A stretch of 64,000 nt of DNA, taken from positions 62,001 to 126,000 of the forward strand of contig NZ_JHWJ01000010.1 of the NCBI RefSeq assembly GCF_000687555.1, read 5' to 3'. Source of the stretch: [Clostridium] aerotolerans DSM 5434 (GTDB taxonomy: Bacteria; Bacillota; Clostridia; Lachnospirales; Lachnospiraceae). The notes under the pieces are model-generated. The model was not told where the DNA came from. It was given only the letters and a program-made list of their open reading frames with translations, and did not search any database. Both the position numbers and the translations under genes were made by a program. Every line of letters starts with the position of its first letter. The stretch's first letter is position 1. Shown piece after piece: positions 47,926 to 51,917 of the stretch.

Positions 47926-48474
47926 ATGGAAATAACCACAGACCGACTGGTCATTCGCAGATTCCGGCCAGAAGATTGGCAGGATATTTATGAGTATCTT
48001 TCCGATGAGGAGGTGGTCCGGTATCTGCCCTATGAAGCATATACCAGTGACCGGGCCAGAGAAGCTGCAATAAAAAGAACAGAACAGGATATCTTTTACG
48101 CAGTATGCTTAAAGGAGACTGGAAACGTAATAGGAGAACTTCTATTTAAGAAAATGGAGTTTGAAACCTGGGAATTGGGTTATGTGTTTAATCCCCGTTA
48201 TATGGGAAAGGGATTGGCATTTGAGAGTGCCAAGGCATTTCTTGATCATGCATTTCGTGAACCTGGCGTAAGGAGAATCGTTGCCTTGTGCAATCCGGAT
48301 AATGAGCGTTCCTGGAAGCTGATGGAGCGTTTGTCTATGAGGCGGGAAGGATTGCTGGTTAAAAACATCTATTTTAAAACCGATGAGAAGGGAGAGCCGA
48401 TTTGGCTTGATACCTTAGAATATGGGCTTTTAAAAGATGAGTGGTACGGGAATCCCCAGACTGAGAAACAATAG
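47926..48474 (+). CDS. GNAT-family N-acetyltransferase (RimJ/RimL-like)
   Basis: A 182-residue acetyltransferase. It has TDRLVIRRFRPEDWQDIYEY at the N-terminus, the acetyl-CoA loop region NPRYMGKGLAFESAKAFL, and CNPDNERSWKLMERLSMRREG, typical of the RimJ/RimL branch that acetylates protein N-termini, amino acids or antibiotics. Start at 47926 is set by GGGAGG 8 bases upstream; the frame also extends to an ATG at 47899 that overlaps the deacetylase stop. Substrate unknown. Confidence 0.85.
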   Translation: MEITTDRLVIRRFRPEDWQDIYEYLSDEEVVRYLPYEAYTSDRAREAAIKRTEQDIFYAVCLKETGNVIGELLFKKMEFETWELGYVFNPRYMGKGLAFESAKAFLDHAFREPGVRRIVALCNPDNERSWKLMERLSMRREGLLVKNIYFKTDEKGEPIWLDTLEYGLLKDEWYGNPQTEKQ

Positions 48475-48505
48475 ACATAAAGCATAATAAATGATTAAAT
48501 AAAAG

Positions 48506-48555
48506 AACGCCTTGATTGGAACTTCCATAGGAAATTTCAATCAAGGCGTTTCTTT
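48506..48555. terminator. Bidirectional terminator between convergent genes
   Basis: A 13-bp perfect stem (AACGCCTTGATTG with CAATCAAGGCGTT), 19-base loop, T-rich on the + side and A-rich on the other, serving both the acetyltransferase gene and the minus-strand fusion gene. Confidence 0.8.
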
Positions 48556-48575
48556 GCGTTCTATGTAGTGCTTTC

Positions 48576-50546
48576 TTACTTTTCTTTCTCTGCTAACTCC
48601 AAAAGAGCATCCCCCACCAGGTCTAACTGGGCTGACCAGGAGTAAATATCATTCAGATACATATATGGCTCTGATAATATAATAATATTACCGGCTTCCA
48701 CAGCGGGAAGTGACTTCCAGATAGGATTATCTTTGATCAAATCATAGTTACCGTATTCCGTCACAAGGATATAATCCCCCATATATTTAGGCAGTGCTTC
48801 AAAGGAGAGTGTTGCCCCCCAGTCATGGCCAGCATCAATTTCTTCTTGCGCGCCTTCTGTTTTAGGAAGATCCAATGAACCGAATAAAATCTGACCACCC
48901 AGATTGCTGCTCCATCGAACACCGATCTGATTTTCACCCTGGACTCTGATGACGCTGAAGGTTTTGTTATATAGACCGGCTTCTTCTAGTTTGGCTTTAT
49001 ATTCAGCGACTTTTTTATAATAAGCGTCCAGAATTTTTTTCCCTTCTTCCGGGTCTTTTCCCAAGGCTTCTGCTAAAAATGGTAATTCTTCATCTACCGT
49101 CATCTGGTCGGAGGGAACATAAACCGTTGGTGCAACTTTTGATAGCTGTTCATAGTTTTCTTCATATTGGGTGATGATTAAGTCCGGCTGCTCTGCCATA
49201 ATGTATTCTGGTTCCCATTTTTCTAAGACTGTGATGTCCTTGATTAAATCCTTATAGGACACATCGGTAGCACCATAATTTTCAATGGCTGCCGGAATCA
49301 CTCCCAGTGCCAGAATATCTCCTAATAATCCGCTGTCCGTAACGACCCGTTTGGGGGTTACGGGGATTTCCACGTCGCCTTTTATCGTTTGTAATATTTT
49401 TGTATCTGATTTTTGGGAACCATCCTCTTTTTTTGTATTCTGACTGTCTTCAGCCTGAGCTGCTGTTGAAGTCGTGGTGTCAGAAGCTGATGATGCTGTG
49501 GAACAGCCGGATAAGAGAGTCATTAAGGAAAGCGCTGCAGCCATCACTGCTGTTTTGTTTTTCAAATGTTTAAACATAATATCTCCTTGTGTATTGAGTT
49601 TGTCTTGACTAACTGGATACGCTTCATTATAGTGTGAGAACTCCGGATTTTCCATGTAAGCATATATCTTGTCCCATGTAAGATTCTTTCTTAGAGTTGC
49701 CGGAGACATTCCCGTAAGCTTTTTAAAAGAGCTGCTTAGATGAAATTCATCATAAAAACCGGTAAATTTCGCAATTTCACTAAGTGAATAATTGCTTTCT
49801 ATTATATACTTGCGGGCCTTTTCCAAGCGTATTTTTAAAAGGTATGCTTGAAAGGTACTTCCGGTCTCCTTTTTAAAAAGTCTGTAAAAATGGCTGTAGC
49901 TGATGCCGAATTTTTGACAAAGATCCTGAACTGCAATGGAAGCCGCATAATTCTTCTCAATATACCGTATGGTCATATGGACAATATCTGGATTAAAGGT
50001 CAATACGCTGGCCTCTGCCAGTTCCTTGTATAGTTCATAGGTAAACTGATAGAATAAAGATTTCTCATAAAATATTTTCATGGGAGCAGGCTCGTTCCAA
50101 TGTTCATAGATACTTCGTAAAATCTCTGTGAAAAAAACAGGATTTTGAGGAGTAAACCCATATTGCTGCTGAAATGGATTAATCTGCTTCAGTAATTTCT
50201 TTAATTTGTCTTTGTTAAACTGTGTTTCGCCGGTTTTGTAGAAGATCATATAATATTCCAGCCACTCACCATGAGGGATAATAGAAAGAGAGGTACCCTT
50301 GCCGCCATGAAAGAGGCTGAAATGATTGATCTGATAGGATTTGCCCCCCAACAGCACTTCTGCCTTTCCAGGGGTCGTAAAAAGAAAAGCACTGCAAGGT
50401 AAAGTAAAATCTAGTAACGTTTCTTCGGGAGAGATCAAATGATGCCTAATATCGAGAAGAGAGATAGCAGAATATTCCAGAATGAGAAATATATCATCCA
50501 TTTCTTCTTTGGTAAAAATAATATCTTTACGAATCATATCTTTCAT
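48576..50546 (-). CDS. AraC-family regulator fused in frame to a siderophore-binding lipoprotein
   Basis: One 656-residue open frame. Residues 1-290 are an AraC-type regulator: cupin-like sensor, then two helix-turn-helix motifs (VQDLCQKFGISYSHFYRLFK and LSEIAKFTGFYDEFHLSSSFK). After a linker, M324 begins a complete lipoprotein: signal peptide with lipobox LLSGC (C348), Ser/Thr tether, and a FepB/FeuA-type type III binding fold (KRVVTDSGLLGDILALGVIP, PDLIITQYEENYEQLSKVAPTVY, GHDWGATLSFEALP). AraC regulators with a cytoplasmic FeuA-like domain are known (Bacillus Btr), but they lack a signal peptide. A perfect ribosome binding site precedes M324, so the lipoprotein can be made alone. No permease gene is adjacent. 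Confidence 0.82.
   Translation of the reverse strand: MKDMIRKDIIFTKEEMDDIFLILEYSAISLLDIRHHLISPEETLLDFTLPCSAFLFTTPGKAEVLLGGKSYQINHFSLFHGGKGTSLSIIPHGEWLEYYMIFYKTGETQFNKDKLKKLLKQINPFQQQYGFTPQNPVFFTEILRSIYEHWNEPAPMKIFYEKSLFYQFTYELYKELAEASVLTFNPDIVHMTIRYIEKNYAASIAVQDLCQKFGISYSHFYRLFKKETGSTFQAYLLKIRLEKARKYIIESNYSLSEIAKFTGFYDEFHLSSSFKKLTGMSPATLRKNLTWDKIYAYMENPEFSHYNEAYPVSQDKLNTQGDIMFKHLKNKTAVMAAALSLMTLLSGCSTASSASDTTTSTAAQAEDSQNTKKEDGSQKSDTKILQTIKGDVEIPVTPKRVVTDSGLLGDILALGVIPAAIENYGATDVSYKDLIKDITVLEKWEPEYIMAEQPDLIITQYEENYEQLSKVAPTVYVPSDQMTVDEELPFLAEALGKDPEEGKKILDAYYKKVAEYKAKLEEAGLYNKTFSVIRVQGENQIGVRWSSNLGGQILFGSLDLPKTEGAQEEIDAGHDWGATLSFEALPKYMGDYILVTEYGNYDLIKDNPIWKSLPAVEAGNIIILSEPYMYLNDIYSWSAQLDLVGDALLELAEKEK
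49575..49589 (-). promoter_or_regulatory. Internal ribosome binding site and start of the lipoprotein
   Basis: On the minus strand AAGGAG, 5 bases, ATG (start 49577). The codon before it is CAA in CAAGGAG; a single C-to-T change would give TAAGGAG, the common stop-plus-ribosome-binding-site junction of adjacent genes. Confidence 0.65.
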
Positions 50547-50626
50547 ATAAAATCTCCATTCCGTGCTGTTAAGGTTTGTAGAACCAATGATAGGATGAAA
50601 TCCAATACCCGGAATTCAACTTGGAT

Positions 50627-50658
50627 GCAATCAGGTTAGTATTAACTAACCTGATTGC
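50627..50658. promoter_or_regulatory. Perfect 14-bp inverted repeat, probable operator
   Basis: GCAATCAGGTTAGT, ATTA, ACTAACCTGATTGC. The inner part AGGTTAG...CTAACCT resembles DtxR/IdeR-type iron boxes, but with a longer spacing. It lies 81 bases upstream of the AraC-lipoprotein gene. No T-run follows on either strand, so a terminator for the upstream methyltransferase gene is less likely. Confidence 0.5.
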
Positions 50659-50711
50659 CTAATGCAACGCCCCCGCTTTTACTTACAGGAGCGCTGCAAA
50701 ATCAATTCTAT

Positions 50712-51917
50712 TTATTTCTCATCACAGACCTGGAAGATATAGAACTTTAAATAGTAAGAAGTATCTTCCCCAGCCCATAAAATAGGGTGATCGGCTGCCT
50801 GTGTCCGGTATTCTACCTGACGGAGACGCTTATGAACGTTAGCGGCTGCCTCCCGTATGGTCTTGGTAAAAAGCTCCGGTGTCATAAAATGAGAGCAGGA
50901 GCAGGTAGCAAGATATCCTCCGTCTTTTACCAGCTTCATGCCTCTTAAGTTGATCTCTCGATATCCTTTTACGGCATTTTTCACGGAGTTCCTTGATTTT
51001 GTAAAGGCAGGCGGGTCCAAAATGACTACGTCAAACTTTTCTCCCTTTTTTTCAAGCTCAGGAAGAAGCTCGAACACGTCAGCACACTGAAAGGTCACCA
51101 CGTCGGATAAATCATTTAGCCGTGCGTTTTCCGTAGCCTGGGCCACTCCGAGCTCAGAGGCATCAACGCCAAGAACCTCAGTTGCTCCGGCGATTCCGGC
51201 GTTTAATGCAAAGGAACCGGTGTGGGTAAAGCAGTCTAATACCCGTTTTCCTTTGCAGATCCGGTGCATAGCGAGACGGTTGTATTTCTGATCCAGGAAA
51301 AATCCGGTTTTCTGGCCGTCCTGAACATCTACCATATACTTGACTCCATTTTCCACGATCTCTACCTTGGTGTCAAATGGTTCTCCGATAAAGCCCTTTA
51401 CCCGCTCCATGCCTTCCTGGAGGCGGACTTTCGCATCGCTTCTTTCGTAGATTCCGCGGATTTCAATCCCATCTTCTTTTAAGATTCGTTTCAAGGTATC
51501 CAGGATCAGCGGTTTTAAACGGTCAATGCCCAGGGCAAGGGATTCCACCACCAGCACATCGGAGAACTTGTCCACCACAATACCGGGAAGAAAATCAGCC
51601 TCTCCAAAGATCACGCGGCAGCTGTCCGTATCGGAGGTGGTTTTCCGATATTCCCAGGCATTTCTCACCCGCATCTCAATAAAATCTTCGTTGATTTCAG
51701 TGTCTTTTTTCCGGGTCATGATGCGGATGGTGATTTTAGAATTGGTGTTGATAAAACCACGGCCAAGAAAGTAGCCGTCAAAATCCTCCACGGTTACCAT
51801 ATCCCCGTTGGTAAAATCTCCGGTAATGGTATCGATTTCGTTATCATAGATCCACATACCTCCTGCTTTTAAGGCGCGGGCCTCACCTTTTTTGATTCTG
51901 ACAATTGCTGATTCCAT
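50712..51917 (-). CDS. rlmI: 23S rRNA (cytosine) methyltransferase, RlmI-like
   Basis: A 401-residue class I SAM-dependent methyltransferase with an N-terminal PUA domain (VRIKKGEARALKAGGMWIYDNEID), a central EEHEA-like domain, and a Rossmann domain with VLDCFTHTGSFALNA (SAM loop) and VILDPPAFTKS. The length and DPPAF motif match RlmI/YccW proteins that methylate 23S rRNA at C1962. Start at 51917 has AAAGGAG about 9 bases upstream; the frame reaches a GTG at 51926 inside that site. The exact target base is inferred from the family. Confidence 0.88.
   Translation of the reverse strand: MESAIVRIKKGEARALKAGGMWIYDNEIDTITGDFTNGDMVTVEDFDGYFLGRGFINTNSKITIRIMTRKKDTEINEDFIEMRVRNAWEYRKTTSDTDSCRVIFGEADFLPGIVVDKFSDVLVVESLALGIDRLKPLILDTLKRILKEDGIEIRGIYERSDAKVRLQEGMERVKGFIGEPFDTKVEIVENGVKYMVDVQDGQKTGFFLDQKYNRLAMHRICKGKRVLDCFTHTGSFALNAGIAGATEVLGVDASELGVAQATENARLNDLSDVVTFQCADVFELLPELEKKGEKFDVVILDPPAFTKSRNSVKNAVKGYREINLRGMKLVKDGGYLATCSCSHFMTPELFTKTIREAAANVHKRLRQVEYRTQAADHPILWAGEDTSYYLKFYIFQVCDEK

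Follow-up and report, generated by a model that had tools for sequence, protein, structure and literature searches.

An AraC regulator and a siderophore-binding lipoprotein in one reading frame: a probable ancient nested gene with two iron-controlled promoters in Bacillota

The window analyzed here, a stretch of 64,000 nucleotides from [Clostridium] aerotolerans DSM 5434, holds on its minus strand (50546-48576) a single 656-codon frame in which an AraC regulator is followed by a lipoprotein-type binding protein. An earlier note had described this joint frame from the letters alone, and the Pfam domains confirm it. The gene and the sites around it are the following:

48576..50546, minus strand: full-length frame of 656 aa, with AraC regulator, linker, signal peptide with lipobox and siderophore-binding domain
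49686..49961, minus strand: AraC-type helix-turn-helix DNA-binding domain, aa 196-287 (Pfam PF12833/PF00165)
48669..49343, minus strand: Peripla_BP_2 siderophore-binding domain, aa 402-626 (Pfam PF01497)
48576..49577, minus strand: inner coding sequence of 333 aa, candidate stand-alone siderophore-binding lipoprotein (start kept in 45/45 sequences)
49503..49577, minus strand: lipoprotein-type signal peptide MFKHLKNKTAVMAAALSLMTLLSGC, lipobox LSGC
49583..49588, minus strand: internal Shine-Dalgarno sequence AAGGAG, 5 nt before the internal ATG
49598..49613, minus strand: predicted internal operator GTTAGTCAAGACAAAC, with the same core as the upstream palindrome
49626..49631, minus strand: -10 hexamer TATAAT of the predicted internal promoter, read in frame as Tyr-Asn
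49649..49654, minus strand: -35-like TGGAAA, 17 nt from the -10; weak, and only partly conserved in Clostridia
50627..50658, no strand assigned: perfect 32-bp palindrome GCAATCAGGTTAGTTAATACTAACCTGATTGC, core GTTAG-N6-CTAAC, upstream of the whole gene

In the full-length protein, Pfam places HTH_18 at residues 209-287 and the best stretch of HTH_AraC at 196-236, and Peripla_BP_2 scores 59.9 bits, above its gathering score of 27.5; the AraC helix-turn-helix and then the siderophore-binding domain are present in this order in one polypeptide. For the family profile A2, the best relatives of solved structure are hydroxamate/ferrichrome-binding proteins. The internal ATG is residue 324 of the full-length frame (49577-49575), and the inner product has, as sequence features, its own start codon and Shine-Dalgarno sequence followed by an N-terminal type II signal peptide. 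The AAGGAG 5 nt ahead of an ATG that had been pointed out directly before the lipoprotein part is part of a complete internal start region, and the suggestion that two products come from one frame is probably correct. Since an iron-type promoter, absent from the earlier note, is also predicted inside the frame, the short product is likely to arise by transcription and not by translation alone. The palindrome at 50627-50658 lies between a methyltransferase-like gene and the fusion gene, and is presumed to be the operator of the outer promoter. Its arms are apparently longer than those of the palindromes upstream of other genus members. No permease gene adjoins the window gene.

In a search of 61 genomes, two genomes besides that of the window gave orthologues of 92% identity, and the same genome gave paralogues at 43%, 41% and 37% identity, all of them single frames. 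In the alignment, the internal methionine, the hydrophobic stretch and the lipobox cysteine are found in 13/13 genus-level members. The distribution is patchy, with full-length members in 6/25 genus genomes and 3/397 family genomes. Moreover, 84,980 species, each represented by a single genome, were scanned with peptide patterns confined to the AraC half, so that the fusion was not selected for; 35 loci were found, and in 33 of them the junction can be read through in one frame. Among the names of the 35 loci are Lacrimispora, Konateibacter, Herbinix, Scatolibacter (Oscillospiraceae), Tissierella, Paenibacillus, Cohnella, Lysinibacillus and Metasolibacillus. Loci L039 and L111 are identical, and an exact match puts Lacrimispora xylanisolvens in the genus of the window. 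Left out before counting were L119 (Metasolibacillus, frameshift inside the AraC half), L138 (Tissierella, contig end, with the AraC half alone visible) and six exact duplicates (L105, L111, L113, L114, L120 and L122); L124 and L136, whose N-terminus is incomplete or shifted, have a readable junction and were kept. The 33 readable loci minus the six duplicates, plus three tandem copies, 13 genus members and two members of a further genus, give 45 distinct sequences including that of the window, 28 from Clostridia and 17 from Bacilli. For Clostridia, codon analyses were done on 21 members, after six near-identical species copies and L101 had been left out. In L119 and L124 the frame breaks inside the AraC half, by decay or assembly error, and the receptor half is open.

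Throughout the 45 sequences the linker holds no stop; it is 34, 35 or 36 codons long, and all lengths are multiples of three. The start codon stands at the same place in every one, as ATG in 44 and as GTG in one (P. tianmuensis, L137); this GTG is more in keeping with a start codon than with a structural methionine. A signal peptide with its lipobox cysteine at residue 23-25 after the internal start is found in 45/45, the residue before the cysteine being Gly or Ala in 43 and Thr in the two L109 genes. Both of these classes of Bacillota have thus retained an open frame, a second set of predicted start signals and a lipoprotein-type signal peptide.

These counts bear on base 49589, the C of the codon CAA in ACA CAA GGA GAT ATT ATG, where a T would be needed for a TAA stop. 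It is true, as the earlier note stated, that this codon is one transition from TAA. That single step between CAAGGAG and TAAGGAG, together with the occurrence of unfused AraC/lipoprotein neighbour pairs, lends some appeal to the two explanations that it offered, a recent read-through fusion by stop-codon loss or a base error. However, the junction is equally open in the two 92%-identical orthologues and in 42 further sequences, which include same-genome paralogues and members from other families and from Bacilli. The codon before GGAG in the 28 Clostridia is AAA, CAA or GAA and never TAA, the base x of xAAGGAG being A in 22, C in 3, G in 3 and T in none. With an open junction in all 45 distinct sequences this is no sequencing slip, and a recent stop loss or base error at 49589 is ruled out for practical purposes.

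Another explanation would be that the lipoprotein and the AraC protein alone matter and that the connection of their frames is neutral. Every signal for a separate lipoprotein is indeed present. In a neutral simulation of the linker on the AraC-half tree, however, a stop arose in 38 of the 45 sequences on average and in never fewer than 27 (1000 runs), against 0 stops observed over 34-36 codons. Limited to the 14 codons before the -10, outside the motifs, the simulation gave a mean of 22 sequences with a stop and a minimum of 10, again against 0 observed, with simulated and observed divergence in agreement (pairwise identity 0.41 vs 0.44). At a quarter of the tree length, which means a divergence below that observed, the mean for these 14 codons was 8.7 and no stop arose in 0.9% of runs. 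Indels were ignored in the linker simulation, and one starting sequence was used. A frame open by chance is rejected by these neutral simulations, and a neutral connection appears very improbable. By the same comparisons the fusion is old, and its frame is apparently held open by selection.

Inside the clostridial linkers, TATAAT is exact in 27/28, GTTAG-N6-CNAAC is found in 26/28 (the exact internal operator is absent from L037 and L101) and xAAGGAG in 28/28, with a spacing of 5 or 8 nt to the start. In all 25 members that have both TATAAT and GTTAG, the two are 12 nt apart. The residues encoded by the Shine-Dalgarno sequence vary (K/Q/E, G, A/V/D/E), whereas its nucleotides are constant. Among the 21 non-redundant members, TATAAT has zero synonymous variants, and a single codon is used throughout in only six of 174 conserved-residue columns, five of these six being in the linker. 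Under a synonymous null, in which the codons of these members were redrawn according to the usage of each gene, TATAAT was observed 21 times against 10.0 expected, AAGGAG 21 times against 5.7 and GTTAG 20 times against 3.1. Measured against this null, synonymous codons in the clostridial linker are fixed beyond expectation. In the full set, an exact Shine-Dalgarno match of at least 6 nt precedes 30/45 internal starts vs 6/791 other in-frame ATGs of the same genes; with at least 4 nt the figures are 45/45 vs 140/791, and 11/45 internal starts have an exact match of only 4 nt. Judged by these comparisons, the conservation of the internal Shine-Dalgarno sequence and start codon beyond coding constraint is clear in Clostridia and weaker in Bacilli. 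A promoter scan of 48400-51000 gave the internal promoter as one of 12 matches vs 7.4 in shuffles, so the claim of an internal promoter rests on the comparison between members. On the opposite strand, a promoter-like TTGACT-17-TATAGT lies over the internal operator (window 49605-49633).

In Bacilli, TTGATA-17-TACAAT stands at the matching place in 11/17, and 10 of those 11 have an internal Fur box TGATAATGATTATCA with 0-2 mismatches, five of them with none. No internal Fur box within 2 mismatches was found in 7/17 Bacilli, and none with 0-2 mismatches in the linkers of the 28 Clostridia. Four other Bacilli have TTGGCY-17-TATACT, and no clear internal -10 was seen in L127 and L134 (2/17). The Shine-Dalgarno sequence is often in another codon register, as GGGGAG at 6 nt. 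Codon fixity of the linker is much weaker than in Clostridia, with 3 columns (Tyr306 is TAC in 11 and TAT in 6) and p 0.013, a value that is indicative only, the members being related by descent.

That the internal signals vary more in Bacilli is among the points in favor of a reading in which the full-length protein alone matters, as a membrane-spanning one-component regulator, and the internal promoter and Shine-Dalgarno sequence are fossils of the intergenic region before fusion. The conservation of the frame would agree with it, as would the N-in/C-out topology that an internal signal sequence would give. Fossils would decay, yet the motif codons are fixed in Clostridia; the GTG start of one member and the replacement of the clostridial operator by a Fur box in 10/17 Bacilli also argue against it. 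The gene neighborhood adds to this. Two same-strand permease genes follow the fusion in 12/35 loci, 11 from Paenibacillaceae and one from Konateibacter, and these permeases are FecCD by Pfam at L133, the single locus examined for this. A phmmer search of those 12 loci (E 1e-6, 9-12 kb each) gave no further siderophore-binding protein. Since a FecCD-type transporter needs a receptor, the inner gene would supply it at those 12 loci, and with the fusion as the sole binding protein found beside the permeases, we judge it improbable that the full-length protein alone matters.

Upstream of the fusion genes, the palindrome GTTAG-N6-CTAAC occurs within 250 bp in 25/28 clostridial members (in two with one variant base), the three exceptions being two second genes of tandem pairs and one gene with a displaced start. 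An upstream Fur box with at most 3 of 15 positions mismatched precedes 14/17 Bacilli and 0/28 Clostridia. Most of the fusion genes are accordingly preceded by an operator of the type that is also found inside. Tandem pairs of fusion genes occur at L107, L109 and L112; the second gene is without its own upstream palindrome in L107 and L112 and has one in L109. In the 64-kb window, GTTAGN6CWAAC matches the internal site and the palindrome at 50635-50650 only, that is, 3 matches over both strands (the palindrome being counted twice) vs 0.13 expected. Genome-wide, with one mismatch allowed, the pattern matches at 69 sites and its reversed control at 45, so little can be built on single operator sites elsewhere.

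Exact palindromes with six-base spacers were examined in 17 regions, mostly around the genome-wide operator matches. According to Pfam, some of them stand ahead of two genes for DtxR-family repressors (Fe_dep_repress), at distances of 103 and 299 nt, and ahead of genes for an Fe/Mn superoxide dismutase and a siderophore-binding protein. By eye, the palindrome at L150 precedes a binding protein and a permease. Other palindromes precede genes without obvious iron link. The palindromes ahead of iron-type genes are the ground for proposing an iron-dependent DtxR-type repressor. L140:2002 and L141 (2223, reverse strand), stand-alone lipoprotein genes from the genome of the window gene, show by eye the elements of the internal region in the same order, namely TATACT, a GTTAGT-type operator, a Shine-Dalgarno sequence and ATG, with a shorter gap from the -10 to the operator; in L140:2002 the end of the operator is variant.

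We turn to what the gene might do. Most likely it is an old nested gene, in frame with its host and under two iron-controlled promoters, from which a full-length regulator-receptor and a separate lipoprotein receptor would be made. An outer iron-repressed promoter would drive the whole frame and give an AraC activator tethered through the internal signal sequence to a siderophore-binding domain. The linker of 34-36 codons would double as a second iron-repressed promoter, with operator, Shine-Dalgarno sequence and start codon, and from this inner promoter the siderophore-binding lipoprotein would be made alone, serving as the receptor of an ABC transporter. Both proteins would be made, and a DtxR-family repressor in Clostridia or Fur in Bacilli would act on both promoters. 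The full-length protein might be a transmembrane sensor, its AraC domain cytoplasmic, its internal signal an anchor and its binding domain outside, which would activate uptake genes when iron-siderophore is bound. A fuller picture is put forward more tentatively, as possible though short of probable: a transmembrane AraC regulator with a transporter binding domain as its outside sensor and a free receptor from a nested iron-repressed promoter, in which the competition of receptor and sensor for the siderophore sets the response threshold, and from which the AraC part may be released by lipoprotein signal peptidase.

In the AlphaFold2 model of the full-length protein (pLDDT 82.7, pTM 0.46), most 10-residue blocks of 11-290 and 381-656 are above 80 pLDDT and residues 294-379 are under 50, a low-confidence helix at 314-346 covering the signal sequence; with this pTM and the low confidence at 294-379, the model is silent on the arrangement of the halves and on the membrane. 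Since the lipobox cysteine is kept in 45/45 though the full-length frame runs through it, the gene might alternatively encode a polyprotein. The full-length protein would then be exported via its internal signal and cut at the lipobox by lipoprotein signal peptidase into a membrane-tailed AraC protein and a mature lipoprotein, and the inner promoter would just add receptor. This is compatible with a nested gene and does not exclude it; since the inner product by itself would account for the keeping of the lipobox, we think such cleavage rather unlikely.

The nested-gene explanation can be set beside known systems. Btr (YbbB) of Bacillus subtilis is an AraC-type regulator of bacillibactin uptake, which is not known to have a signal peptide between its domains and whose feuA is a separate gene. 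The window gene resembles it in the order of the AraC and siderophore-binding domains and in the iron-uptake context. Unlike Btr, its binding domain has a signal peptide, a lipobox and its own predicted promoter, and one frame would serve both roles. In a B. pumilus study, ybbB is listed as an AraC regulator with a FeuA-like domain, placed in the Fur group and upstream of feuA (PMC3896406). The NCBIfam Btr model scores the window protein at 95.1 bits vs a cut-off of 900, which does not make it a member of the Btr equivalog, and no NCBIfam Btr match was found in the genome at E 1e-30, whereas B. subtilis, among 14 controls, did give one. The window gene is not Btr, although it may work in a Btr-like way. 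A cytoplasmic full-length protein that senses imported iron-siderophore as Btr does would have the domain order in its favor, and the Btr model is the top NCBIfam match, though far below cut-off; the intact hydrophobic signal peptide between the domains in 45/45 speaks against it, and we hold it to be doubtful. In another genus, L104:2923-3987 encodes an AraC protein that by eye runs into binding-protein-like sequence with no signal peptide, a Btr-like layout with GTTAGTCAATACTAAC upstream; the locus end cuts this gene, and Pfam sees the AraC part only.

Like FecCD-type siderophore-binding lipoproteins (FhuD/FeuA type, PF01497), the inner product has a signal peptide, a lipobox and Peripla_BP_2. 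In contrast to theirs, the whole of its gene is contained in the 3' half of a regulator gene and is read in the same frame. Bacterial products of in-frame internal starts ('gene within gene'), such as the short CheA, are known. As with short CheA, a long and a C-terminal short product would come from one frame; here, however, the short product would be made from a regulated promoter of its own and would reside elsewhere in the cell. ToxR and CadC are membrane-tethered one-component regulators with the DNA-binding domain inside and the sensor outside. The likeness to them would be one of proposed topology only, the window protein differing by its AraC-type regulator, its lipoprotein signal sequence and the transport receptor as sensor. 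Searches of one open-access library found no description of a nested AraC-lipoprotein arrangement. If our explanation is true, one protein linker contains a promoter, an operator, a ribosome-binding site and a signal peptide, all of them kept for both uses, and this dual use occurs in two bacterial classes, each with its own type of operator. Annotation as one AraC regulator of about 650 aa would hide the receptor gene, and some Paenibacillus iron-transport operons would then seem to be without binding protein. The arrangement also provides a clean way to test whether sensing outside the cell via a lipoprotein domain is possible for AraC regulators.

Regarding origin, unfused cousins have the AraC, lipoprotein and permease genes in order; here a stop is present, and the gap measures about 75-90 nt. 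The order is direct at L151; at L048 an ABC-type gene stands between, and at L037 and L120 the permease is cut by the locus end. The simplest history would be that the stop of the AraC gene was lost in frame long ago and the promoter of the receptor retained inside; the ancestral neighbours would have been AraC, lipoprotein and permease genes, of which the second kept its promoter when the intervening stop disappeared. The window protein and the Scatolibacter fusion L107:7005 share 46% identity in the AraC half and 73% in the binding half, and the binding half of the window protein is 68-70% identical to three stand-alone lipoproteins. Going by these identities, the binding half is exchanged as a module. 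In L044:4644-6509, a single frame of 621 aa matches the siderophore-binding half and has a lipoprotein signal peptide at its start. The 630-codon frame of L044 has two binding-protein matches, so probably two binding domains, with a GTTAG palindrome upstream.
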